NCBI GenBank assembly: GCA_017858735.1
Contig: JAFMBH010000002.1
Location: 85,363 to 149,362 of the forward strand
Reading direction: 5' to 3'
DNA: 64,000 bases
Source: Bacteroidota bacterium
GTDB lineage: Bacteria; Bacteroidota; Bacteroidia; Chitinophagales; Saprospiraceae
How positions within the stretch are numbered: position 1 is the first letter of the stretch; the number at the start of each line of letters is the position of its first letter. A program made the position numbers and the translations under genes. Below, piece after piece: positions 3,382-21,067 of this stretch. The notes beneath the pieces were generated by a model, which did no database searches, had not been told where the DNA came from, and was given only the letters and a program-made list of their open reading frames with translations.

Positions 3382-4551
3382 TTATAGTTTTTCGTAGATA
3401 CCCGCAATACCCTGGCCTCCGCCTACACAGGCAGTGACCATCCCGTATTTTTTATTTTGTCTTCCGAGTTCATTGATTAGCTGGGTAGTCAGTTTCGCAC
3501 CTGTACAACCCAGTGGGTGACCCAATGCAACGGCTCCACCGTTAACATTTACAGATTCAGGGTTCAGACAGCCTTCTTTAATTACAGCAAGAGCCTGAGC
3601 GGCAAAGGCTTCGTTAAGCTCCACCAGATCTATATCGGAAAGGGATAAACCAGCTGATTTAAGTGCTTTAGGAATTGCAGCACAAGGCCCCATACCCATA
3701 TACAAAGGATCCACACCACCAACAGAACAGGAAACCATTCTGGCAATGGGTTGCCAATTAAATAATTTCACCATTTCCTCACTGGCAACCAGCACAAAGG
3801 CTGCACCGTCTGATGTCTGAGAAGCATTACCAGCGGTTATAATTCCTTTGGTATCAAAAACAGGTTTAAGTGCTGCTAATGAAGCCAGGGTAGTATCGGG
3901 TCTTACCCCTTCATCTACCGACACTAAGGTAGAAGTTTCGACTCTTTTATTATTTCTTACAGAAACATCCGTAACCTCGATGGGAACGATTTCATCTTTG
4001 AATTTACCTTCCTGGATGGCTTTTGCGGCCTTTTGGTGAGAGCTAACAGAAAATGTATCTGCATCCTCCCTGCTTATTCCATATTTTTTAGCCACGGCCT
4101 CAGCGGTAATGCCCATCCCTGTAAGATAATTAGGTGTTTGGTTAGCCACATCATAATTGGGCGCTAACTTATACCCTGTCATTGGAATTTGGCTCATACT
4201 TTCTGCCCCACCGGCAATAAAAATATGCCCCATTCCCGCGCGAATTTTTGCCACCGCCATGGAAATAGATTCCAATCCTGAGGCACAATATCTGTTAACG
4301 GTTACTCCGGGCACAGGAATACCCAGGGCACGTAAAGAGATTTGCCTTCCAATTTGAAAACCTTGTTCTCCTTCGGGGTTGGCGCAACCTACTATAACGT
4401 CATCAACGATATGTGGATCGAGTTCCGGCACCTGAGCCATAAGATGTTCAATGACCTTTACGGCAATGTCGTCAGATCTGAAATTTTTAAAACTTCCTTT
4501 TTTTGCTTTTCCTACAGCTGATCTATAGGCTTTTATGATATATGCTTCCAT
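3382..4551 (-). CDS. fadA: acetyl-CoA acyltransferase (3-ketoacyl-CoA thiolase)
   Basis: 389 residues, normal length for a degradative thiolase, which cleaves 3-ketoacyl-CoA with CoA to acetyl-CoA and a shortened acyl-CoA in the last step of beta-oxidation. The nucleophilic Cys sits in NRYCASGLE near residue 89; the other conserved blocks are the His of ALGHPLGCTGA and the second Cys of TACVGGGQG near the C terminus. It lies 26 bp downstream of the fused hydratase/dehydrogenase gene on the same strand, the usual fadN-fadA order. No acyl-CoA dehydrogenase gene is adjacent. Confidence 0.95.
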   Translation of the reverse strand: MEAYIIKAYRSAVGKAKKGSFKNFRSDDIAVKVIEHLMAQVPELDPHIVDDVIVGCANPEGEQGFQIGRQISLRALGIPVPGVTVNRYCASGLESISMAVAKIRAGMGHIFIAGGAESMSQIPMTGYKLAPNYDVANQTPNYLTGMGITAEAVAKKYGISREDADTFSVSSHQKAAKAIQEGKFKDEIVPIEVTDVSVRNNKRVETSTLVSVDEGVRPDTTLASLAALKPVFDTKGIITAGNASQTSDGAAFVLVASEEMVKLFNWQPIARMVSCSVGGVDPLYMGMGPCAAIPKALKSAGLSLSDIDLVELNEAFAAQALAVIKEGCLNPESVNVNGGAVALGHPLGCTGAKLTTQLINELGRQNKKYGMVTACVGGGQGIAGIYEKL

Positions 4552-4577: not shown

Positions 4578-6977
4578 TTAGTTTCTGAGAGGTTTATTGT
4601 TCTGAAGCATATATTGAATCCTTTCCTGTGTTTTTTGTTCGCCACACAAGGATAAGAATGCTTCTCTTTCCACATCAAGCAGATATTGTTCACTGACTTG
4701 TTGTGTTCCTGAAAGGTCACCTCCACACAACACATAAGCTATTTTCTGCGCAATTTTAATGTCATGTTCAGAGGCAAAATGACCCAATTTCAACTCATTT
4801 GCCGCTAAATACAAGGGAGCAAGACCCGTTCGGCCAAGAACAGTGATATCGTCACGTAATATAGGCTGCGTGTAATTCCTTGCTAATTGAAGTACTTTTT
4901 GCTGAGCATAAGCAATGGCTCTATCTTTATTTAGCACTACTTCGTCGCGTCCTTTAATTAAGCTGCCATATTTGAATCCTTCATAAGCACTGGTAGCCAC
5001 AGAAGCCAGGGCAATGGCTTTAAATTTTTCTATGAGGGTAGGAATTTGAACGTCACCCTCAAAAAATAAATCTGAAGCTCGAAGGGCATATTCTTTGGTA
5101 CCTCCACCGCCAGGGATAAGGCCTATGCCCGCTTCTACTAATCCTATGTAGGATTCTGCACTAACAACAGCAGCATCACAATGCATTAAAATTTCGCACC
5201 CACCGCCAAATACATAACCTTGAGTGGCTGCAACAACAGGAATAGCAGAATACCTGCAACGCAGTGTAGTTTGTTGGAAGGCGTTGACAGCCATATTTAA
5301 CTGATCGAAATCTTGCTGATAGGCGAGCATGCCAATCATCATCAAATTAGCTCCTACAGAAAAATTAGTAGCTTGATTACCAATAACCAACCCTTTCCAA
5401 CCGCCATCTTCGGCCAGTTGAATGGATTCCTGAATACCCATTAACACTCCTTCTCCAATGGAGTTATGTGGACTGGTGAATTCCAGACATAACACCCCTT
5501 CGCCAATATCATGAAGAATGGTTTCGGATGTTTTGTGAACCGGTGATTTACTTCTGTAATTATCAAGTATTACTAAGCTATCCTGACCAGGAATAGGCTG
5601 ATAAGCCTTCAGTATCTGGTCGTAGTATAATTTTTTACCGTCTTGCTTTGAATAAAAGGAAGTGAACCCGGCGCTTATCATTTCATTGACCCAGGAAGGT
5701 ACTTTCTCCCCTGATTCTTTAATGAGCTGAACCCCTTTTTCAAGTCCGATAATATCCCAATACTCGAAAGGGCCTAATTCCCAGGCAAACCCGGCGCGAA
5801 TGGCATCATCAATTCTGAAGAAACTATCGGCTATTTCAGGTATTCTATTGCTTGCATAAGAAAATAGAGAAACCAATGATTCTTTTATTAAAGCAGCCCC
5901 ATTATCCTGAGCATCAAAAAAATGTCTGATTCTCCTTGGAAGATCATCCATCTGTTTTGCTGCTTTTAAGCTGGGAATATCAGGACGAATACTTGGTTCG
6001 TAAGTCAGAGTATTCAGATTTAAAGCTAAAATGACAGGTTTGCCCTTTTCGTCTTTCTCATTCGTTTTTTTATAAAATCCCTGACCCGATTTATTGCCCA
6101 GGAATTTATTCTCGAGTAAAAAATCAAGATAGGGAGGAACCTCAAAGGAGGAAACTTGTTCGTCGTTGGCGCAGTTCGCCTTTAAACCTCGAATAACATT
6201 TCCTGAGGTATCATGACCTACCAGATCACCTAATCGGAAGGTGCCTGTTTTAGGTCTTCCAATAACTGGTCCGGTTAGCGCATCTACCTCCTCAATGCGA
6301 AGATTATATTTTGAGGTGAGTTGGAACACTTTTGCCATAGCAAAAACGCCAATTCTATTGCCGATAAAAGCAGGAGTGTCCTTGCATAAAACGGTTGTTT
6401 TCCCCAGATAGTGATCTCCGTAATGCATAAAGAAATCAATAACTTCGGGCAGTGTATCCTGGGTGGGAATAACCTCTAAGAGGCGTAAATATCGCGGCGG
6501 ATTAAAAAAATGGGTGCCACAAAAATGCTTTTTAAAATCTTCCGACCGCCCCTCACCCATAAGATGAATAGGTATTCCTGAAGTATTGCTGGTTATCAGA
6601 GAGCCACTTTTTCTAAAAGTATCCACTTTAGCAAAAATCTCTTTTTTGATATCCAGGCGCTCAACCACCACCTCAATAACCCAGTCACAATCGGATATTT
6701 TTGAAAAATCATCTTCAAAATTTCCCGTTTTGATCCTTTTTGCAAAGGCTGCGTCATACAAAGGCGCAGGTTTAGATTTAATTGAAGCCATTAAAGCCTG
6801 GTCTGCTATTTTATTCCTGGCTTTGGGTTGTTTTTTTTCATCATCAGACAAATTATTTGGAATAATGTCTAATAACAAGACGTCGACACCTATATTGGCC
6901 AAGTGACAGGCAATACCCGATCCCATGACCCCGGAACCAAGGACCGCCGCTTTTCTTATTCTTTTTGTCATCCCCAT
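4578..6977 (-). CDS. fadN: 3-hydroxyacyl-CoA dehydrogenase / enoyl-CoA hydratase fusion (FadN type)
   Basis: 799 residues. The N-terminal Rossmann motif GSGVMGSGIA (about residues 14-23) starts the 3-hydroxyacyl-CoA dehydrogenase part, followed by its C-terminal helical domain up to about residue 470. The crotonase-fold enoyl-CoA hydratase part is at the C-terminal side (GYVFGGGCEI and GLVEAGIGLIPGGGG). This order, dehydrogenase first, is that of Bacillus FadN and the reverse of E. coli FadB. It catalyses hydration of enoyl-CoA and NAD-dependent oxidation in beta-oxidation. An internal Met two codons in (MTKRIRK) is an equally good start. It forms an operon with the thiolase downstream. Confidence 0.93.
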   Translation of the reverse strand: MGMTKRIRKAAVLGSGVMGSGIACHLANIGVDVLLLDIIPNNLSDDEKKQPKARNKIADQALMASIKSKPAPLYDAAFAKRIKTGNFEDDFSKISDCDWVIEVVVERLDIKKEIFAKVDTFRKSGSLITSNTSGIPIHLMGEGRSEDFKKHFCGTHFFNPPRYLRLLEVIPTQDTLPEVIDFFMHYGDHYLGKTTVLCKDTPAFIGNRIGVFAMAKVFQLTSKYNLRIEEVDALTGPVIGRPKTGTFRLGDLVGHDTSGNVIRGLKANCANDEQVSSFEVPPYLDFLLENKFLGNKSGQGFYKKTNEKDEKGKPVILALNLNTLTYEPSIRPDIPSLKAAKQMDDLPRRIRHFFDAQDNGAALIKESLVSLFSYASNRIPEIADSFFRIDDAIRAGFAWELGPFEYWDIIGLEKGVQLIKESGEKVPSWVNEMISAGFTSFYSKQDGKKLYYDQILKAYQPIPGQDSLVILDNYRSKSPVHKTSETILHDIGEGVLCLEFTSPHNSIGEGVLMGIQESIQLAEDGGWKGLVIGNQATNFSVGANLMMIGMLAYQQDFDQLNMAVNAFQQTTLRCRYSAIPVVAATQGYVFGGGCEILMHCDAAVVSAESYIGLVEAGIGLIPGGGGTKEYALRASDLFFEGDVQIPTLIEKFKAIALASVATSAYEGFKYGSLIKGRDEVVLNKDRAIAYAQQKVLQLARNYTQPILRDDITVLGRTGLAPLYLAANELKLGHFASEHDIKIAQKIAYVLCGGDLSGTQQVSEQYLLDVEREAFLSLCGEQKTQERIQYMLQNNKPLRN

Positions 6978-9081: not shown

Positions 9082-9486
9082 ATGCCTATCAAGAAAAAAT
9101 CGAAAATTTCGGCCGAGTTTAATATGTCTTCTTTGACTGACATTATTTTCCTTTTGTTGATTTTCTTTATGCTTACGTCGTCTATCGTTGCCCCCAATGC
9201 ATTAAATCTTAAATTACCAGGGACAAGTCAGAAGAAGGCAACGCAACAAGAAGACTACGATGAGGTTTTTATATCGAAGTCAGGCGTTTTTGAGTTAAAT
9301 GGGAAAGTCAAATCTTTACCAGAAATTGAAGCGTTTTTGTTGGAAAAGTCAATGGATAAACCCGAGGATTTTAGTTTTATCATTCAACCAGAAAGAGAAA
9401 CACCGGTCGAATTTGTTGTATCTATTATGGATATTGCCTTAAGACTTAAAATTAATGGGGTTTTGGCTACCGCTCCCGTTGAATAA
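9082..9486 (+). CDS. exbD: ExbD/TolR family protein (second copy)
   Basis: 134 residues, with the same layout as its neighbour: basic N terminus, one helix with the conserved Asp in SLTDIIF, and a periplasmic domain (residues 45-134) that differs from copy one. It starts 10 bp after the first copy, and tonB follows 30 bp later. Paired exbD genes before tonB are common in Bacteroidota. Confidence 0.94.
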   Translation: MPIKKKSKISAEFNMSSLTDIIFLLLIFFMLTSSIVAPNALNLKLPGTSQKKATQQEDYDEVFISKSGVFELNGKVKSLPEIEAFLLEKSMDKPEDFSFIIQPERETPVEFVVSIMDIALRLKINGVLATAPVE

Positions 9487-9516
9487 GATTTATTTTTTGC
9501 CTTTAAATAATATGTT

Positions 9517-10362
9517 ATGCAGGTTTTGCATGTAGAAAAGGAGAAAAAGGAAAAGAGAAGAGCAATGATACTTAGCTTCTTTTTCCATCTGGGAGCTATC
9601 ATTCTGCTTATGCTCCCTCTTTTAGAATATCCAGATCCTCCTCCCGGTCAAGACGGTATCCTAATTGCTTTGGGTAATCCTGATGAAGGCACCGGGCCTA
9701 TAGAACCCGGAGGTCCAGAGGAACCTACTCCCGCAGAACCCATTGAGGAGCCTAAGCCCGAACCTAAACCTGTGGAGGAAGTTAAACCTAAGGAGAAAGT
9801 AAAAACAACTGATCCGTTAGTTTCAGAGAAGGAGTTCGAAATTAATAGAAGAAAAGCAGCGGAAAAAAAAGAAAAAGAGGAGCGGGATATTAAAGAAAAA
9901 GAGGAAGCTGCTGAAAGAGTAAGATTAGCAAAGGAAAAACAAGAGGCGATAGATAAGGAACAGCAGGAAGCTGCTGAATTAATTAAAAATATTAAAAAGG
10001 GTTCAGGGGGTTCCTCAGGTAAACCAGGCAAAGGCGGACAAGCTAATGGCGATGAAAATGGAAAGGTGGAAGAGGGGATTTCTACCGGAACCGGAATGGT
10101 TGGCGGTGGTTTGGGTGGAAGGGGTGTCGTTTCTTCTCCCGCTTTAAAAGATGATTCGAATAATAGGGGAAGTGTCGTAGTTGCTATTTGTCTCGATAAG
10201 GAAGGTAATGTTACCGAAGCAAAATTTCAATTGCAAGGCTCTACCATTACCTCGGGGAAATTAAGGGATCTTGCCGTGAGTAATGCTCGTCAATGGCGTT
10301 TTAAACCTGGCAATGAAGAGCGACAGTGCGGTAATATTACCTATTCTTTTAAAATCCAATAA
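9517..10362 (+). CDS. tonB: TonB family energy transducer
   Basis: 281 residues. A short cytoplasmic N terminus, one membrane anchor near residues 17-37 (AMILSFFFHLGAIILLMLPLL), then a Pro/Glu/Lys-rich linker with PEPKPVEEVKPKEK, a long charged probable coiled coil (about 105-155), a Gly-rich stretch and a TonB C-terminal domain ending ARQWRFKPG...YSFKIQ. It spans the periplasm and passes energy from ExbB/ExbD to outer-membrane receptors. The C-terminal domain is of the short TonB type. Confidence 0.93.
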   Translation: MQVLHVEKEKKEKRRAMILSFFFHLGAIILLMLPLLEYPDPPPGQDGILIALGNPDEGTGPIEPGGPEEPTPAEPIEEPKPEPKPVEEVKPKEKVKTTDPLVSEKEFEINRRKAAEKKEKEERDIKEKEEAAERVRLAKEKQEAIDKEQQEAAELIKNIKKGSGGSSGKPGKGGQANGDENGKVEEGISTGTGMVGGGLGGRGVVSSPALKDDSNNRGSVVVAICLDKEGNVTEAKFQLQGSTITSGKLRDLAVSNARQWRFKPGNEERQCGNITYSFKIQ

Positions 10363-13332: not shown

Positions 13333-14265
13333 TTAAGATGGTCTGGATTTTAGGTTATCGATAATCTGCTGAGCAAGTTGCAAAGCTTTTACCCCATCAT
13401 TTACTGTAACAACGGGCTGTTTCTTATAAAATATAGCTTCTGCAAAGGAACGCAATTCTTCCTTCAAGGCATTATGATGCAAAAAAACAGGCATTTCTGT
13501 TTCATAATGTAAAGATGAACGTGAGATAATCTGGCTTTTTTTCTCTAAAAAATCCATGCTAATGTAAGCATCAGGTTGAAACAAACGCATTTTCCGCATT
13601 TTTTTCATCGAAATTCGAGAGGAGGTTACATTGGCTACTGCACCATTTGCAAATTCAATTCTTGCATTGGCAATGTCAGGAGTAGGACTTAAAATAGCTA
13701 CCCCATTTGCTCTGATATCTGTGATTTCGAAGGGAATAAGTTGTAATATAAGGTCTAAATCATGAATCATCAAATCTAAAACAACGGAAACATCAGTTCC
13801 CCGTGCATTGAAAGGTGCCAGTCTATGGACTTCTATAAACATCGGATGTAATCCGAGATCTTTGACACTTAACCAGGCAGGATTGAAGCGTTCGATATGT
13901 CCAACCTGAACTACGGGGTAAGTTTGTTTATCATTGAACCAGTTTTTTAAGGAAATAGCTTCCTCCAGCGTATCCGTTATGGGTTTTTCAATGAATAAAT
14001 GTTTATCATAGGATAAAACCTGTTTTGCATAAAAATAATGAAAAGAGGTTGGGACAGACAAAATAATGGCGTCAGAAGCTTCAATTAAGGAAGCTGCATT
14101 GTTAAAAGAGGTCCATTGGGATAAATCAGGCGATGAGTCGCCTATTTGTGGGTCATTATCGTGAAATCCAGCGACGGTGAACCATTCAGGTAATTCATTG
14201 AGTTGTTTTAATATTAACTTCCCTAAATGACCTGCACCAATGACTCCAACTGTAATCATAGCCAC
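13333..14265 (-). CDS. Gfo/Idh/MocA family oxidoreductase
   Basis: 310 residues. N-terminal Rossmann fold with GVIGAGHLGK, the EKP motif (LFIEKPITDT) near residue 94 that positions the nicotinamide, then the alpha/beta Gfo C-terminal domain with VVLDLMIHDLDLIL. Members oxidise or reduce sugars and related compounds with NAD(P). The substrate is not evident. An internal start at Met3 is equally possible. Last gene of a minus-strand run that starts with the small membrane proteins or further up. Confidence 0.9.
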   Translation of the reverse strand: MAMITVGVIGAGHLGKLILKQLNELPEWFTVAGFHDNDPQIGDSSPDLSQWTSFNNAASLIEASDAIILSVPTSFHYFYAKQVLSYDKHLFIEKPITDTLEEAISLKNWFNDKQTYPVVQVGHIERFNPAWLSVKDLGLHPMFIEVHRLAPFNARGTDVSVVLDLMIHDLDLILQLIPFEITDIRANGVAILSPTPDIANARIEFANGAVANVTSSRISMKKMRKMRLFQPDAYISMDFLEKKSQIISRSSLHYETEMPVFLHHNALKEELRSFAEAIFYKKQPVVTVNDGVKALQLAQQIIDNLKSRPS

Positions 14266-14267
14266 GG

Positions 14268-14576
14268 TTATTCTCTAAAATACATTAAAACAGCCCCCAA
14301 GAGGGTGATAAGTACCATCAAAACAGAGGCCATTTTAATGGCTAATCTTATATATTTTGAGAAATCTCTAATAGCTTGGGCCTGATTTGGATATCGTGGT
14401 ATAACTTCCCTTTCCAGTTTATCTGGATGAAAAACATCCATCGCATTGAATTCTACCTTATGACGAACCAGGATTTGATAGTTATTTAAAACCTTGACAC
14501 GAAAATAAAAGGATAGGAAGAGCATGCTTAAAAAGAGCAGCGTAATAATGATAAATAGGGTAAGGAATAAACTCAT
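14268..14576 (-). CDS. small membrane protein, unknown function
   Basis: 102 residues with two predicted membrane helices (about 3-25 and 80-100) and a basic loop between them (DKLEREVIPRYPNQAQ). No family recognised. Its start overlaps the stop of the upstream gene by ATGA and its stop is 2 bp from the next gene, so it is tightly co-translated with both neighbours. Confidence 0.75.
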   Translation of the reverse strand: MSLFLTLFIIITLLFLSMLFLSFYFRVKVLNNYQILVRHKVEFNAMDVFHPDKLEREVIPRYPNQAQAIRDFSKYIRLAIKMASVLMVLITLLGAVLMYFRE

Positions 14577-14950
14577 TTATTTAATTCTTTTTCTTTTTTC
14601 CAACCTGAACTTAATCCGGCAGCTATAAGAAGGTGTAAAGAACCTGCCCGAGCATCAGGATTATAAATAAACTGACTTAGACTGAGCAGGGTATGAAAAA
14701 GGATGAGTAAAATTATCAGTCCATTTCGTTGGGCGCTTCCCGGAACTTCCCGTAGGGCCCAAAAAGAAATGGCTACAGGCAGCATAGCGGCAGAACCATA
14801 CATAGCCAATAACATTTTCGGTGTATTTTCACCGTGTAAAGGCTGTAAGGCGGAAATAAATTTTAGGTACAAAGGGAAAAACCAGCATAATATGGCTATT
14901 CCTCCTTCTAAAACAATGGTAGTATAAAGTAATATCTTAACAATTTTCAT
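14573..14950 (-). CDS. small membrane protein, unknown function
   Basis: 125 residues and about four hydrophobic helices (residues 5-30, 48-64, 75-92, 100-115), ending in a Lys/Glu tail. No family recognised. It lies 4 bp downstream of the SDR gene at 14955 and overlaps the next gene by 4 bp, so it belongs to the lipid-oxidation run by position. A role in membrane delivery of a hydrophobic substrate is only a guess. Confidence 0.75.
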   Translation of the reverse strand: MKIVKILLYTTIVLEGGIAILCWFFPLYLKFISALQPLHGENTPKMLLAMYGSAAMLPVAISFWALREVPGSAQRNGLIILLILFHTLLSLSQFIYNPDARAGSLHLLIAAGLSSGWKKEKELNK

Positions 14951-14954
14951 CGGC

Positions 14955-15749
14955 TCATTTTCTATTTTCGCGAAGGTAATATGCAGACATCCAAATAACG
15001 ACAGCTTCGGGTAATCTTTTCATAATTGAAAGTAAAAAAGATAGTCCTTTACCTGGGACAACCAGATTTTTGCCATTTTTAATACCCTTAAGAATATCTC
15101 TAACTACCGTGTCGGGCGTTACTACCATCCAGTTTTTGAAGGTTCTGGACTTTTCCATTCCCGCCCGTTCCATAAATCCTGTGTTTACTACGGGCGTTGG
15201 ACAAACGGCCATCGTACGAACAGCAAACCCCGCTTCTCTTAATTCAAAATCAATAGATCGGGTAAACTGCAAAACAAAACTTTTAGTTGCACCATAAGTT
15301 CCTAAACGAGGGTTTGGCTGGAAGGCTGAAATGGAGGAAATGTTTATTATCCAACCACTATTGCGCTGAATCATATCTTTCAAAAAAAAACGGGTTAACT
15401 GGTAAACATTCAACATGTTTAACTGAAGCATTTTAAATTCGCTCTCCTGATCTGTTTCCCAAACATAGCCGTAGGTGCCAAATCCAGCGTTATTTACCAG
15501 GATATCAGGAACAAAATCGGCTTTTAAGGCCTGTTGATATACCGATAGGGCACTTTCCGGAAGCGTCAGGTCAATTTCTAGACCGATAAATTGCAGATTT
15601 GGAAAATCTTTTTTGAGATTTTCTATGGCCAAAGGAAGTAATCCGTCTTCCTTAGCCACTAAAAACAAAGCGTTCCCTTCTCGTGCAAATGCATTGGCAA
15701 GTTCAAGTCCAATGCCTTGGGAACCGCCAGTAATGAGCATTTTTTTCAT
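14955..15749 (-). CDS. short-chain dehydrogenase/reductase, acyl-chain type
   Basis: 264 residues. Cofactor motif TGGSQGIG near residue 7, NNAG motif, catalytic Ser-Tyr-Lys in ISSIS and YGATK. The C terminus is hydrophobic (FLLSIMKRLPEAVVIWMSAYYL), as in membrane-bound reductases of long-chain or isoprenoid substrates. It is 6 bp downstream of the aldehyde dehydrogenase gene, which suggests an alcohol/aldehyde or keto-acyl interconversion before or after that step. The true substrate is unknown. Confidence 0.88.
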   Translation of the reverse strand: MKKMLITGGSQGIGLELANAFAREGNALFLVAKEDGLLPLAIENLKKDFPNLQFIGLEIDLTLPESALSVYQQALKADFVPDILVNNAGFGTYGYVWETDQESEFKMLQLNMLNVYQLTRFFLKDMIQRNSGWIINISSISAFQPNPRLGTYGATKSFVLQFTRSIDFELREAGFAVRTMAVCPTPVVNTGFMERAGMEKSRTFKNWMVVTPDTVVRDILKGIKNGKNLVVPGKGLSFLLSIMKRLPEAVVIWMSAYYLRENRK

Positions 15750-15755
15750 GTAAAA

Positions 15756-17186
15756 TCAAGACAATTTGAAGGCAAGAAAAGAAACCAGTTTCTGTTTAAA
15801 CCCATTGTAAGGAGGATAAATAAAGGATAGGGTTCCAAAATTTCTTTTAACAATACCCCGCTCATTGGAGAAATCAACAAAAGAATGAAATCCCATCGCT
15901 TTGCCAATCCCACTGTTATTAACGCCACCGAAAGGAAGGTCCGGATTCAGGTATCCAAGTAAATAATCATTTATCACCGTTCCACCGGAGGACGTTTTAC
16001 TAATTATCTCGTTGATGAATGCGTTGTTTTTTGAGGCAACATAAAGAGAAAGTGGTTTAGGTTTTTCGTAAATAATCTCTACCACCTCATTTATATCCTT
16101 GAATGTCATCATAGGCATAACCGGGCCGAAAATTTCTTCCTCCATGATTTTCATATCATGAGAAACATTTCCAAGGAGGGTAGGGGAAATAAATCGGTCT
16201 GTTTCATCAAATTCTCCTCCGGCCAGTACTTTGGCTCCTTTAGAGATTGCATCATCAAATAATGCTTTTATTCTGTTAAAATGCCTGTTATTTATGATTC
16301 TGCAATAATCAGGAGAGTTTTTAATTCCTTTATTTTCAGGATTATAAAATGCGTTTATACTTTTTTGATATGCTTTAGTAAATTCTTCAGCGACGCTTTC
16401 CTGAACTAATAAATAATCGGGAGCGATGCATGTCTGACCATTATTAAAATGTTTTGCCCACACACATTTTTCTGCAGCATCAGATATTGGTGCTGATTTT
16501 TCAATGATGGCAGGAGATTTTCCACCCAGTTCCAGGGTAACTGAAGAAAGGTGTTGGGCAGCTGCGGCCATCACTACTTTTCCAATTTGAGGACTTCCTG
16601 TGAAATAAATATGATTGAAAGGCAGAGATAATAGTCGGCTTGCCAGAGAGGCATCTCCTTCCAAGACAGTAACTTCATCTTGTGGATAAAGTTCTGATAG
16701 CATATTGTTAATAAAATGAGCTGTGTGCGCAGCGAGTTCTGATGGTTTTAAAAGAACCGTATTTCCAGCGGCTATGGCATAGATTAAGGGAAGAATGGAC
16801 AGATTAAAAGGGTAATTCCATGGAGAAAGAATCAGGCAAACCCCCTTCGATTCGTATTTAACCCATGAAGAAGTTCCAACGAGGGTGATAGGTGTATCCA
16901 CCACTTTGTTGGCCATCCAACGCGCGAGATTTTTTTTAACATGAGTTATTTGCTGAATAATAGCACTTATCTCACTACTCATGACTTCGACGGGATGTTT
17001 CTTGAAATCGGCATATAAAGCGGTTTCCAACGATGTAATGTTTGCCGGGTTTCTCAAATAGGCTTCCAGTTTTTTTAATTTGTCGATTCTTTCCTTAACA
17101 GATGTGCGGGAAGTAATGCGAGCCTTCGATTTTAAATTTTGGAAAACTAACTGAAGATCGTCGGTGGTATTTGTTGAAATAGTCAT
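15756..17186 (-). CDS. ALDH3-type fatty aldehyde dehydrogenase
   Basis: 476 residues, the length of the class 3 family. General base Glu219 in TLELGGKSPA, nucleophile Cys253 in NNGQTCIAPDY, EEIFGPV, and the class 3 ending PFGGVNNSGIGKAMGFHSF followed by a hydrophobic tail (IYPPYNGFKQKLVSFLAFKL) as in membrane-associated fatty aldehyde dehydrogenases. It oxidises long-chain aldehydes to acids with NAD(P). Operon position after the acyl-CoA synthetase and before the SDR supports a lipid aldehyde as substrate. Confidence 0.92.
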   Translation of the reverse strand: MTISTNTTDDLQLVFQNLKSKARITSRTSVKERIDKLKKLEAYLRNPANITSLETALYADFKKHPVEVMSSEISAIIQQITHVKKNLARWMANKVVDTPITLVGTSSWVKYESKGVCLILSPWNYPFNLSILPLIYAIAAGNTVLLKPSELAAHTAHFINNMLSELYPQDEVTVLEGDASLASRLLSLPFNHIYFTGSPQIGKVVMAAAAQHLSSVTLELGGKSPAIIEKSAPISDAAEKCVWAKHFNNGQTCIAPDYLLVQESVAEEFTKAYQKSINAFYNPENKGIKNSPDYCRIINNRHFNRIKALFDDAISKGAKVLAGGEFDETDRFISPTLLGNVSHDMKIMEEEIFGPVMPMMTFKDINEVVEIIYEKPKPLSLYVASKNNAFINEIISKTSSGGTVINDYLLGYLNPDLPFGGVNNSGIGKAMGFHSFVDFSNERGIVKRNFGTLSFIYPPYNGFKQKLVSFLAFKLS

Positions 17187-17223
17187 GTTTTTACATTTTG
17201 TTATAAATATATGTTATTTTAAA

Positions 17224-18912
17224 TCATTCCCAAATGATAGGAAGGTCAGATTGGCTCCATGCGTCAAATTTATGGCTAAATAGCTGATTTAAATGATGTC
17301 TCTTTATTTTTAGGGTTGGGGTTAATACGCCGTTTGAAACATCCCAGGGTTCTGAAAGAATCACAACGGAGGATATTTTTTCAAAATTCGAGACTAGCTG
17401 GTTAACTGCATTGAGCGTACTTTCCAAACGCTTATTTATATCTTCTTTGGGTAAAGTTTGAGCAAATTCAGATAAATTTATAAGCGCTAGTGGCTGAGGA
17501 AGCCCAATACCGACCACACAAACTTGTTCAATAAGATCATTGACAGCAAAGGGGAATTCAAGGGTAGCGGGCGAAATAAATTTACCTTTTGCCGATTTAA
17601 ATGTTTCTGATAATCGTCCGGTAATGTATAGATAACCCTCATCATCTATTTTTCCCATGTCACCGGTATGTAACCAATTATTCTCAATAACTGTGTTGGT
17701 TAAAGAATCGTCCTCGAAATAGCCCCTCATTAGCCAGGGAGCTTGCATTAATATTTCACTGTTTTCCGGATCTATTTTTAATTTAACGCCAGGCACGGCT
17801 TTACCCACTGTGCCATTTTTTTGAACATTTTGTGGCATGAGCGTGCAGCCTCCGCAGTTCTCAGTCATCGCATAAACCTCCTGAATAGGAATGCCTAATT
17901 TGTCAAAAAAAACTTTTAAACTATCTGAAGCAGGAGCAGCACCTGTGAGCCGGATTTTAGCATTGGAAAGACCTAAGTTTTTCTTGAGCAAATACTTTAA
18001 AAAATCACCCAGAAAAGGAATTTTCACGAGGTTAAAAAGCAATGGTTCCGGAATTTTTGATACAATTCCCATTCTAAATTTTGTCCAAATTCTTGGAACA
18101 GCCATAAAAACAGTTGGCTGTGTCTGTTTCAGATTATAAATAAAAGTTTGCAGGGACTCACCAAAGGAAATACTTCCACCGGTGTGTATCGCAGCTGCAG
18201 CGACAATAAGCCTCTCTGCAATATGATTTAAAGGTAAGTAGGAAAAAAAGCGATGGTGTTTTGTGTGGGCTAGCCCTAAAAAATTGGTTTCTTTTTCTAA
18301 TTGCATAAGAGCGGCAGGACCATCAAAATCGATCATAACCCCTTTGGGTTTACCTGTAGTTCCCGATGTAAAAAGGATGGTCCAGATATCATTTAATGCG
18401 GGCAACGGGTTGCCCAACAGGGGCTGATATCTATTGATCAAAACATCCCATTGAAAGCCATTGGAAACTAAACTATTACCTGCATAATGGGGAAATGAAA
18501 TCACCGGAAGATCTGTGGGAACCCCCTTTTGCTGGTTTTCCCAATCGTCTAATTTTCCTATAAAAAGGAGTTTTATTTTACCAGCTTCAATAACTTCTGA
18601 TAATTGATCAGCCGTTTGATTCGGATAAAATGGGACAGAGATCAGACCAGACATCATCAACGCGAGATCGGTGATAATCCAGTGGTAACAATTTTTTGAA
18701 AGAATGCCTACGTTATCGCCAGGTACCAGGCCCATATCAAGAAGCGCAGCGGCCATTCTTCTTGCCTGAGATCCGGTTTCTTTCCAACTTATATCCTTCC
18801 ATTTTTTACCTTCGGGTTGACGAAGAAATATACGATTGGGCTGTAACTCTTCCCATTCATAAAAATATTCCAGCAAGGATAATCTGTTTGTTTCAAGGGT
18901 TGTATTTTCCAT
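17224..18912 (-). CDS. AMP-forming long-chain acyl-CoA synthetase
   Basis: 562 residues. ATP/AMP signature TILFTSGTTGKPKGVM near residue 185, adenylation blocks YAMTENCGGC, LHTGDMGKIDDEGYLYITGR and the hinge region. The catalytic Lys region near the C terminus is less clear. The fold and FADD-like layout (SWKETGSQARRMA, SYLPLNHIAERL) match long-chain synthetases that make acyl-CoA from fatty acid, ATP and CoA. It lies between the enoyl-CoA reductase and the aldehyde dehydrogenase genes, so it would activate the acid made by the latter. Confidence 0.92.
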   Translation of the reverse strand: MENTTLETNRLSLLEYFYEWEELQPNRIFLRQPEGKKWKDISWKETGSQARRMAAALLDMGLVPGDNVGILSKNCYHWIITDLALMMSGLISVPFYPNQTADQLSEVIEAGKIKLLFIGKLDDWENQQKGVPTDLPVISFPHYAGNSLVSNGFQWDVLINRYQPLLGNPLPALNDIWTILFTSGTTGKPKGVMIDFDGPAALMQLEKETNFLGLAHTKHHRFFSYLPLNHIAERLIVAAAAIHTGGSISFGESLQTFIYNLKQTQPTVFMAVPRIWTKFRMGIVSKIPEPLLFNLVKIPFLGDFLKYLLKKNLGLSNAKIRLTGAAPASDSLKVFFDKLGIPIQEVYAMTENCGGCTLMPQNVQKNGTVGKAVPGVKLKIDPENSEILMQAPWLMRGYFEDDSLTNTVIENNWLHTGDMGKIDDEGYLYITGRLSETFKSAKGKFISPATLEFPFAVNDLIEQVCVVGIGLPQPLALINLSEFAQTLPKEDINKRLESTLNAVNQLVSNFEKISSVVILSEPWDVSNGVLTPTLKIKRHHLNQLFSHKFDAWSQSDLPIIWE

Positions 18913-18953
18913 CTAATCTATAAGAAACTGGGGATTTAAGGTTTGAAATGAGA

Positions 18954-19727
18954 TTAAAGCAAATAAGGACTACCGTGTAAATGTTGTCCTCCGTCCAGGT
19001 AAATAGTATCACCGGTCAGATAATCAGCGGCTTGTGTACTTAAAAAAAGCGTTAAGGATGCTACTTCGTCCACTCGACCCAATCTCTTGGCGGGAATATT
19101 TTCTGCCAGGCCATGTAACATTTGTGGTGGATAGTTGTCCAGGCCGGATGATAAAATGATCCCAGGGGCAATGGCGTTAATTTGAATATTGTATTTACTC
19201 CATTCTACGGCCAGCGATTTAGTTAGATTATCCACACCAGCTCTCGCGGCACCAGTATGAACCATTCCTGGAAATCCTCTGTAAATGTTTACGATAATAG
19301 TGACGATTTTTCCTTCTTTTTGAGGGATGAAAAATTGATTTGCCATGGTCTGGGTCATAAACCAGGTGCCATTTAAATTATTATTAATGACAGCGAGCCA
19401 GCCTTTTTCAGTAATATCTTCTGCAGGCGAGAGGAATTGGCCCCCCGCGTTATTTATTAATATATCTAATCGACCGGTTTTTTCTTTAATGAAATTGGCT
19501 AAATCTAAGATTTGTGCTGTTTCCCTAATATCTGTCGTTTTCTCAAAACAAGTGCCCAAAAGGCTTAGTTCCTCTATGGCCGCCTTTAATTTGGCTTCTT
19601 TTCGTCCACAAATAAATACGGTTGCCCCTGCTTTTAGAAACTGAGCGGCAATTTCTTTACCAATTCCCGTTCCGCCACCCGTTACTAAAACAGACTTATT
19701 TTTAAACAAATCATCTCTGAAAATCAT
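18954..19727 (-). CDS. PECR-like trans-2-enoyl-CoA reductase (SDR)
   Basis: 257 residues. TGGGTGIG cofactor motif and NNAGGQFLSPAEDITEKGW, a block very close to that of animal peroxisomal trans-2-enoyl-CoA reductase (PECR). The usual YxxxK is replaced by TGAAR in HTGAARAGVDNLTKSLAVEW, which is a mark of the PECR/2,4-dienoyl-CoA reductase branch and not a defect. NIQINAIAPG and the C-terminal TGDTIYLDGG follow. It would reduce an enoyl-CoA with NADPH. Its start overlaps the monooxygenase stop by ATGA, so the two are translationally coupled. Confidence 0.88.
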   Translation of the reverse strand: MIFRDDLFKNKSVLVTGGGTGIGKEIAAQFLKAGATVFICGRKEAKLKAAIEELSLLGTCFEKTTDIRETAQILDLANFIKEKTGRLDILINNAGGQFLSPAEDITEKGWLAVINNNLNGTWFMTQTMANQFFIPQKEGKIVTIIVNIYRGFPGMVHTGAARAGVDNLTKSLAVEWSKYNIQINAIAPGIILSSGLDNYPPQMLHGLAENIPAKRLGRVDEVASLTLFLSTQAADYLTGDTIYLDGGQHLHGSPYLL

Positions 19728-21067
19728 GCCGTTTCAAATTTATTTTTTCTTAATTCTTTTTTTAATTTATTCATAAAAGACTGATAATGCACTTCTATGG
19801 TGTGTCTTTTTGCTGAAAGGAATTCTTTTGAAATGTCATTTGCATCCTTTTCTGCTAATAATTTTAAATCACCCTCTGGCTTCCATTTTTTCATAATATA
19901 CTTCGCTGCTAATTTAGCCTGATAATCACTTAAGGGCCAAACAGCGCCTTGTGGTTGAAATAAACCAATGAAAATCAAGTTTTTATAATCAGGGTGAAAC
20001 ATTCTCAAATAGAGCGGCACGCTATCTCCCTCTTCCCATTGAATGAACTGTTTACTAAAAAAGGGGAAACTAATTTTATAACCTGTAGCAGCTATGATAG
20101 TATCAAAATTTTCATGTTTACCATCTTGAAAATATACTTCTTTATCTTCGATTTTTTTGATGCCAGTCCTTGGGGTAACCTTTCCGTGTCTTATTTTATA
20201 TAATAATTCAGAATTTAGGGTTGGATGAACCTTAGTCACTGCAAAATCTGGCTCGGGTAGCCCATAATCTTTGTATCGCCCAACCTGAATAAAAACAGAC
20301 AATCGCCGGAGAGGATTGGATATAAAGGTGGGAAGCCATGCCATGCCCTTATTAAAAGTATCTGTAGGTTTTCCAAGAAAAAATTTGGGAATGATATATT
20401 GAGGATTTCTAACAGAAATGGCAGTGTATTCGGCCACCCGGCTTATTTCAACAGCACAGTCACATCCTGAATTTCCCGCTCCAACGACTAAGACTTTTTT
20501 TTCCGTAAACGGTTTATTTGTCTTATAAAGGTGCGAATGTATTAATTCTCCTTTAAAAGAGGTAAGTTCCTCTGGAATTCTCGGTTTTGAATGATGACCA
20601 TTGGCAATAAGCAGGTAATCAAACATTCTAATCTCGCCAGTACTCAAAGTGAGTTCCCATCGTTCATTCTCCTGGATTTTTGCCTCTATGACCCGCGTAT
20701 TAAATTGAATATGAGGGAATAAATTAAAATGGGTAGCATAATCATGAAAATAACGCCATACTTGTTGGTGTGACGGATAGTCCGGATAATTTTCGGGCAT
20801 GGGGAAATCCTCAAAGGACGACATCGTTTTCGAACTTATAATGTGGGTGGTTTCACACACACTGGAATGAGATTCCTTTTCAGAGAAAAGCCAGTTTCCC
20901 CCAATTTGATCATTTTGTTCAAAACAAATAACTTTACCAACATTGGCTTGAATCATGTTTTTTAAGGTCGTAAGTCCTGAACAACCTGCCCCAATGATGG
21001 CAATAGATGGTTTATTTGGGTATTCTTTGCTTAACATTGTTATTTGCTTGTTTTTATCAGCTTTCAT
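19724..21067 (-). CDS. flavin-containing monooxygenase (FMO-type)
   Basis: 447 residues. FAD site GAGCSG (26-31), NADPH site VVGAGNSGCD near 195, and the FMO fingerprint FxGxxxHxxxY as FKGELIHSHLY (171-181), with Tyr in place of the Trp of Baeyer-Villiger enzymes. It would insert one oxygen atom into a soft nucleophile or carbonyl. A second Met (MLSKEY) at codon 11 is an alternative start nearer the usual family N terminus. First gene of the five-gene minus-strand run; 92 bp from the divergent peptidase gene, so the promoter must lie in that gap. Confidence 0.9.
   Translation of the reverse strand: MKADKNKQITMLSKEYPNKPSIAIIGAGCSGLTTLKNMIQANVGKVICFEQNDQIGGNWLFSEKESHSSVCETTHIISSKTMSSFEDFPMPENYPDYPSHQQVWRYFHDYATHFNLFPHIQFNTRVIEAKIQENERWELTLSTGEIRMFDYLLIANGHHSKPRIPEELTSFKGELIHSHLYKTNKPFTEKKVLVVGAGNSGCDCAVEISRVAEYTAISVRNPQYIIPKFFLGKPTDTFNKGMAWLPTFISNPLRRLSVFIQVGRYKDYGLPEPDFAVTKVHPTLNSELLYKIRHGKVTPRTGIKKIEDKEVYFQDGKHENFDTIIAATGYKISFPFFSKQFIQWEEGDSVPLYLRMFHPDYKNLIFIGLFQPQGAVWPLSDYQAKLAAKYIMKKWKPEGDLKLLAEKDANDISKEFLSAKRHTIEVHYQSFMNKLKKELRKNKFETA

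Follow-up and report, generated by a model that had tools for sequence, protein, structure and literature searches.

Which compounds are processed by a run of five minus-strand genes in a genome of the Saprospiraceae, and with which known pathway should this run be compared? The window analyzed here, a stretch of 64,000 nucleotides, is part of the genome G000 (4.23 Mb, 222 contigs). A sequence-only reading had recognized in the run a flavin-containing monooxygenase (FMO), a PECR-like SDR, an acyl-CoA synthetase (ACS), an aldehyde dehydrogenase (ALDH) and a further SDR, and had likened this set to the animal conversion of phytol.

Gene content and organization of the locus

The five ORFs were complete and filled positions 14955-21067 at the coordinates noted before. 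ORFs, protein families and solved structures all confirmed the cluster FMO-PECR-ACS-ALDH-SDR (Table 1). As first drawn the run was incomplete, since two small ORFs and a Gfo/Idh-type ORF continue it on the same strand down to position 13333. The beta-oxidation genes reported nearby, a thiolase and a FadJ-like fusion, were found at a distance of 8.0 kb.

Table 1 Coordinates and assignment of the genes in the run and of the beta-oxidation genes in the window
Feature	Length (aa)	Position	Strand	Family, motifs and remarks
Flavin-containing monooxygenase (FMO), first gene of the run	447	19724..21067	-	PF00743; GAGCSG, GAGNSG, FKGELIHSHLY, AATGY
PECR/AtuG-type enoyl-CoA reductase-like SDR	257	18954..19727	-	PF13561; TGAAR replaces Tyr-x3-Lys
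Long-chain-type acyl-CoA synthetase (ACS)	562	17224..18912	-	PF00501 and AMP-binding_C_3; TSGTTGKPKG, TGD
ALDH3-type (fatty) aldehyde dehydrogenase	476	15756..17186	-	Aldedh PF00171; LELGGK, GQTC
Classical SDR, candidate alcohol dehydrogenase	264	14955..15749	-	PF00106; intact Y152-x3-K156
Small hydrophobic protein	125	14573..14950	-	Starts 4 nt after the SDR; genus-conserved
Small hydrophobic protein	102	14268..14576	-	Overlaps the 125-aa ORF
Gfo/Idh-type oxidoreductase ORF, last of the same-strand run		13333..14265	-	Assigned by reading the sequence
3-Hydroxyacyl-CoA dehydrogenase/enoyl-CoA hydratase fusion (FadJ-like, beta-oxidation)		4578..6977	-	Separate unit
Thiolase (beta-oxidation)		3382..4551	-	Beside the fusion gene, separate from the five-gene run

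The genes of FMO and PECR overlap by 4 nt and the remaining gaps measure 41, 37 and 6 nt; we infer that the five genes are transcribed as a single unit. Scans of the locus for sigma-70 promoters and terminators gave matches no more frequent than in shuffled sequences, such scans being uninformative for Bacteroidota. The three additional ORFs (13333-14950) are tightly spaced and conserved in the genus, and were not seen together with the operon elsewhere.

The expected motifs of FMO, ALDH, ACS and the classical SDR were all intact. A profile search confirmed the family of the FMO (FMO-like, E 1e-75) and its nearest solved structure was that of an ancestral FMO5 (6sek, 1e-66). It carries the FMO fingerprint FxGxxxHxxxY and lacks the BVMO motif FxGxxxHxxxW. 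For the ALDH the nearest structures were a bacterial ALDH (6k0z), followed by the human fatty aldehyde dehydrogenase (4qgk, 7e-101).

Identity of the PECR-like SDR

Among solved structures the PECR-like SDR matched human PECR best (1yxm; 6e-56; 193 bits), followed by 3imf (189), AtuG from a citronellol cluster of Pseudomonas (6lln; 175) and, at 131 and below, DECR1 and FabG. In a phylogeny of 44 sequences (IQ-TREE) it formed one clade with human PECR and AtuG (support 94/88), from which FabG was separated. The 2,4-dienoyl-CoA reductases (DECR1, 3imf) are a neighbouring SDR subfamily which likewise lacks the catalytic Tyr, but they formed a clade of their own (100/95) and carry Lys where the PECR types have Arg.

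The NNAGGQFLSPAED block and the TGAAR variant, both named in the sequence-only reading, are present in the protein. Across 15 orthologues NNAGGQF was invariant and TGAAR nearly so, with a single TAAAR. An NNxGGQ block and [S/T]GAAR are common to the SDR of the window, AtuG and human PECR, the catalytic position reading TGAAR in the former and SGAAR in the two latter. FabG and the second SDR of the operon carry Tyr-x3-Lys at this position and the DECR types Ser-x3-Lys. An identity as FabG or as dienoyl-CoA reductase is ruled out by tree and motif.

Given these different catalytic motifs, the operon contains two kinds of SDR. Judging from these motifs the classical SDR is likely an alcohol dehydrogenase and the PECR-like SDR an enoyl-CoA reductase. 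The literature lists AtuG as citronellol/citronellal dehydrogenase (PMC4097962). This listing looks doubtful, since AtuG shares the [S/T]GAAR motif, which suggests that a PECR-type enoyl-CoA reductase is the more likely identity of AtuG as well.

SDRs of the PECR/AtuG type were also present in MAGs of Myxococcota, Planctomycetota, Bdellovibrionota, Calditrichota and Proteobacteria (L130-L176), and the tree placed the Calditrichota protein nearest to the human enzyme (96/71).

Conservation of the locus

Across the genus of the window (7 genomes, G000-G006) the operon genes were 93-100% identical, and the gene order was kept in every contig spanning the run. A closely similar locus (L097; 98% over the PECR-like SDR) was found in a pond-derived Saprospiraceae MAG. 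Since the flanking genes were conserved in the genus as well, the conservation of the run within it tells little. In G005 the initial 120 codons of the PECR gene were missing and a short gap followed FMO (L049, G005:C7, ~9425-9984), which reflects a true deletion or a fault of the assembly.

The neighbours were also found together outside the genus, in several genera. A single run TetR-FMO-PECR-ACS-SDR-ALDH was present in G204 (L209), FMO-PECR-ACS reached the contig end in G304 (L208), and in G250 (L210) FMO was followed by two small or opposite ORFs and then by PECR-ACS-ALDH. G196 and G260 (L236, L248) carried PECR-ACS-ALDH-SDR1 in the order of the window, with FMO located elsewhere in the genome. 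Furthermore, FMO, a small ORF and ACS-SDR1 followed each other in G214, and FMO-SDR1 was found in G019.

In total, 71 PECR neighbourhoods (1.12 Mb) contained a window-type ACS in 14 and a window-type ALDH in 7 cases, compared to ~0.56 expected on a generous background, a statistic which is only indicative as the genomes are related and some of the reference proteins were drawn from the same loci. FMO was not adjacent to PECR in most of the FMO-bearing genomes; within the order the two coincided in 32 of 399 genomes (PECR in 120, FMO in 42; 8e-11, uncorrected for relatedness). A chance adjacency of the five genes is ruled out by the order kept in other genera and by the linkage counts.

Link to geranyl-CoA-type carboxylase operons

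In many Bacteroidota the PECR orthologue was located inside an operon TetR-CTbeta-BCalpha-ECH-BKACE-PECR, often followed by ACS, ALDH and acyl-CoA dehydrogenases; a Crocinitomicaceae MAG (L131) carried the complete set. In G024 the series TetR-CTbeta-FMO-BCalpha-ECH-ADH-BKACE-thiolase, with FMO between CTbeta and BCalpha, was followed 15 kb further by PECR-ACAD-ACS-SDR-ALDH, all within ~26 kb. The same gene set was spread over two or more contigs in G014. The FMO, first regarded as an outsider to the route, belongs to the carboxylase operon in two related genera. At L059:5216-8230 (G014:C15) CTbeta and FMO form one open frame of 1004 aa, possibly a fusion or the result of a lost stop codon.

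According to Jurado et al. (PMC4673880) the beta subunit of MCC has Phe191 after a 3-residue insertion, that of GCC a Gly and no insertion. All CTbeta of the PECR-linked type that were examined lacked the insertion and carried Gly, or Ala in L125, L152 and L155, and the second CTbeta paralogue of the carboxylase-bearing genomes had the insertion and Phe. By this rule the PECR-linked carboxylase is of the geranyl-CoA type. PECR (120 genomes) and this carboxylase (81) were found together in 73 of the 399 genomes of the order (Fisher 4e-38, uncorrected for relatedness). BKACE was a regular member of these operons in Bacteroidota (L058, L033, L131) and might replace the enzyme of the HMG-CoA-lyase-type step in the Atu pathway.

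The neighbourhood also bears on a reading of the run as a module for tailoring envelope lipids like the mycobacterial mymA operon (FMO, SDR, FadD13), in which a lipid would be made and not degraded. The mix of FMO, SDR and acyl-CoA synthetase is comparable, and the top NCBIfam profile of the terminal SDR was mycolate reductase, though far under the cut-off. However, with the orthologues accompanying catabolic genes (TetR, carboxylase, BKACE, thiolase, acyl-CoA dehydrogenases) we consider such a role very unlikely.

Gene content of the genus

The geranyl-CoA carboxylase (AtuC/AtuF) which was present and PECR-linked in many relatives was not found in any of the 7 genomes of the genus. The same was true for an MCC-type carboxylase, the sole match being PCC-like at ~32%, and for BKACE. 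Nearly all relatives keep the MCC-type carboxylase, and its absence from the genus suggests a loss of the leucine (liu) pathway. Each of the genus genomes carried several acyl-CoA dehydrogenases. The absence of GCC, MCC and BKACE counts against reading the run as an isoprenoid module, since the breakdown of the 3-methyl branch is left unexplained in this genus.

A generic oxidation of long-chain lipids or a clearance of fatty aldehydes, with straight-chain substrates and a PECR-like SDR acting on ordinary unsaturated acyl-CoA, would fit a genus without carboxylase and BKACE yet with acyl-CoA dehydrogenases, FadJ and thiolase. ALDH3 and long-chain ACS often use straight chains, and human PECR is also active on straight-chain 2-enoyl-CoA. 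However, PECR, ACS and ALDH are linked in a conserved manner to the geranyl-CoA-type carboxylase, which points to 3-methyl-branched chains, and a generic route appears rather unlikely to us.

In the animal-type route phytol is converted via phytenal and phytenic acid to phytenoyl-CoA, which PECR reduces to phytanoyl-CoA, followed by alpha-oxidation. Matching enzyme types are united in the run, the best PDB match of the reductase is the human enzyme and the ALDH is of the ALDH3A2 type. Alpha-oxidation, however, was not evident. PhyH-family proteins occur in the genus, and the best-scoring one, ahead of two weaker ones, resembled leucine hydroxylase and EctD most, PHYH matching it much less well; its gene is directly followed by a Gfo/Idh oxidoreductase at L177:8476-10490 (G000:C151). 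Because of this resemblance and this neighbour, alpha-oxidation of the animal type via this protein is unsupported in the genus. No candidate for a 2-hydroxyacyl-CoA lyase was seen in the surroundings of the PhyH genes, the regions viewed for it. A PhyH protein of the same size and score was present in all 7 genomes.

Furthermore, the linkage of the orthologous PECR genes to a GCC-type carboxylase points to another way of handling the methyl branch, and the phytol route offers the FMO no role. We therefore regard it as quite unlikely. Of the outcomes that would have refuted the sequence-only reading, neither a grouping of the SDR with FabG or dienoyl-CoA reductases nor a lack of joint conservation of the neighbours was observed. 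The isoprenoid direction of this reading is strengthened, the specific analogy to animal phytol oxidation is not supported.

Proposed function of the run

As the orthologues of PECR, ACS and ALDH are part of GCC-type operons, with FMO inside them in two genera, we would read the run as that half of an Atu-like pathway in which the substrate is oxidised and activated. The operon would convert an alcohol, aldehyde or ketone with a long, methyl-branched (isoprenoid-type) chain by oxidation to an acyl-CoA, which is then saturated, a proposal to which we give about an even chance. Branched, terpene-like alcohols, aldehydes or ketones would thereby probably serve the bacterium as fuel. We infer all substrates, the reaction of the FMO and the order of the steps.

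The first step would be an oxygenation by the FMO, in the simplest case the Baeyer-Villiger oxidation of a methyl ketone. Such a reaction is known for FMO5; since the FxGxxxHxxxW motif is absent, it is only one option here. The classical SDR would then make an aldehyde, ALDH3 would oxidise it to the acid and ACS would form the CoA thioester, whose 2,3-double bond would be reduced by the PECR/AtuG-type SDR before the saturated acyl-CoA enters general beta-oxidation. In many Bacteroidota the same enzymes are joined to the geranyl-CoA-type carboxylase operon, which would remove the 3-methyl branch, and the genus of the window has the front half of the acyclic-terpene pathway only, plus the FMO. 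The truncated PECR gene of G005 and the separation of FMO from PECR in most FMO-bearing genomes count against this proposal.

In a more specific form of the proposal the FMO would act as a Baeyer-Villiger enzyme opening a methyl ketone (phytone or geranylacetone, for example), SDR, ALDH3, ACS and PECR would process the shortened alcohol, and the FMO would replace the geranyl-CoA carboxylase in these Saprospiraceae. If true, this would be a carboxylase-free bypass of the isoprenoid 3-methyl branch. Among the PECR-bearing genomes 6 carried FMO and carboxylase, 26 FMO only, 67 the carboxylase only and 21 neither (raw 2e-8; within family 0.001). This raw exclusion would fit the methyl-ketone route, but in tree-aware independent pairs on the PECR tree it was not significant (~4 vs 0.7 pairs, same direction, median p ~0.25-0.4). 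We therefore keep this specific form, which appears unlikely, as a lead only.

Ponds, activated sludge and algal debris offer plenty of chlorophyll phytol and other isoprenoids, and Bacteroidota, in particular Saprospiraceae, are frequent in such habitats. At the gene level terpene catabolism has so far been worked out chiefly in pseudomonads. Our analysis supplies a concrete gene set together with a second version built on the geranyl-CoA-type carboxylase.

Comparison with known systems

In the literature we found no paper on the operon of the window and nothing useful on phytone and Baeyer-Villiger oxidation. The mymA operon (Rv3083-Rv3089) unites FMO, SDR and a fatty acyl-CoA synthetase and has a proposed role in envelope lipids. 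We know of no PECR-type SDR or ALDH3 in it. The likeness to the window is one of gene content, the FadD13 structure (3r44) being only a weak match of the ACS (5.6e-23). FadD13 and the mymA operon have been described for mycobacteria (PMC2793005).

With the animal oxidation of phytol (ALDH3A2, PECR, PHYH, HACL1) the window has the ALDH3-type dehydrogenase, the CoA activation and the PECR-type reductase in common. In contrast, the genus has no evident PHYH, an FMO is added, the genes form a bacterial operon and their orthologues are tied to a carboxylase route.

The atu operon of Pseudomonas (atuABCDEFGH) shares with the operon of the window the PECR-type SDR (AtuG, 6lln), the ACS step and the alcohol/aldehyde oxidation (PMC4097962), all of which are present together in the window. 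Its GCC-type carboxylase and hydratase are matched in the relatives of the window, which differ from it in carrying BKACE. The operon of the window itself has FMO and ALDH3 and is without carboxylase, hydratase and citronellyl-CoA dehydrogenase. Since the atu operon is the closest described bacterial counterpart, the earlier statement that no bacterial operon of such a form was described needs qualifying. The Atu pathway is the better comparison than the animal phytol route, which is too specific.
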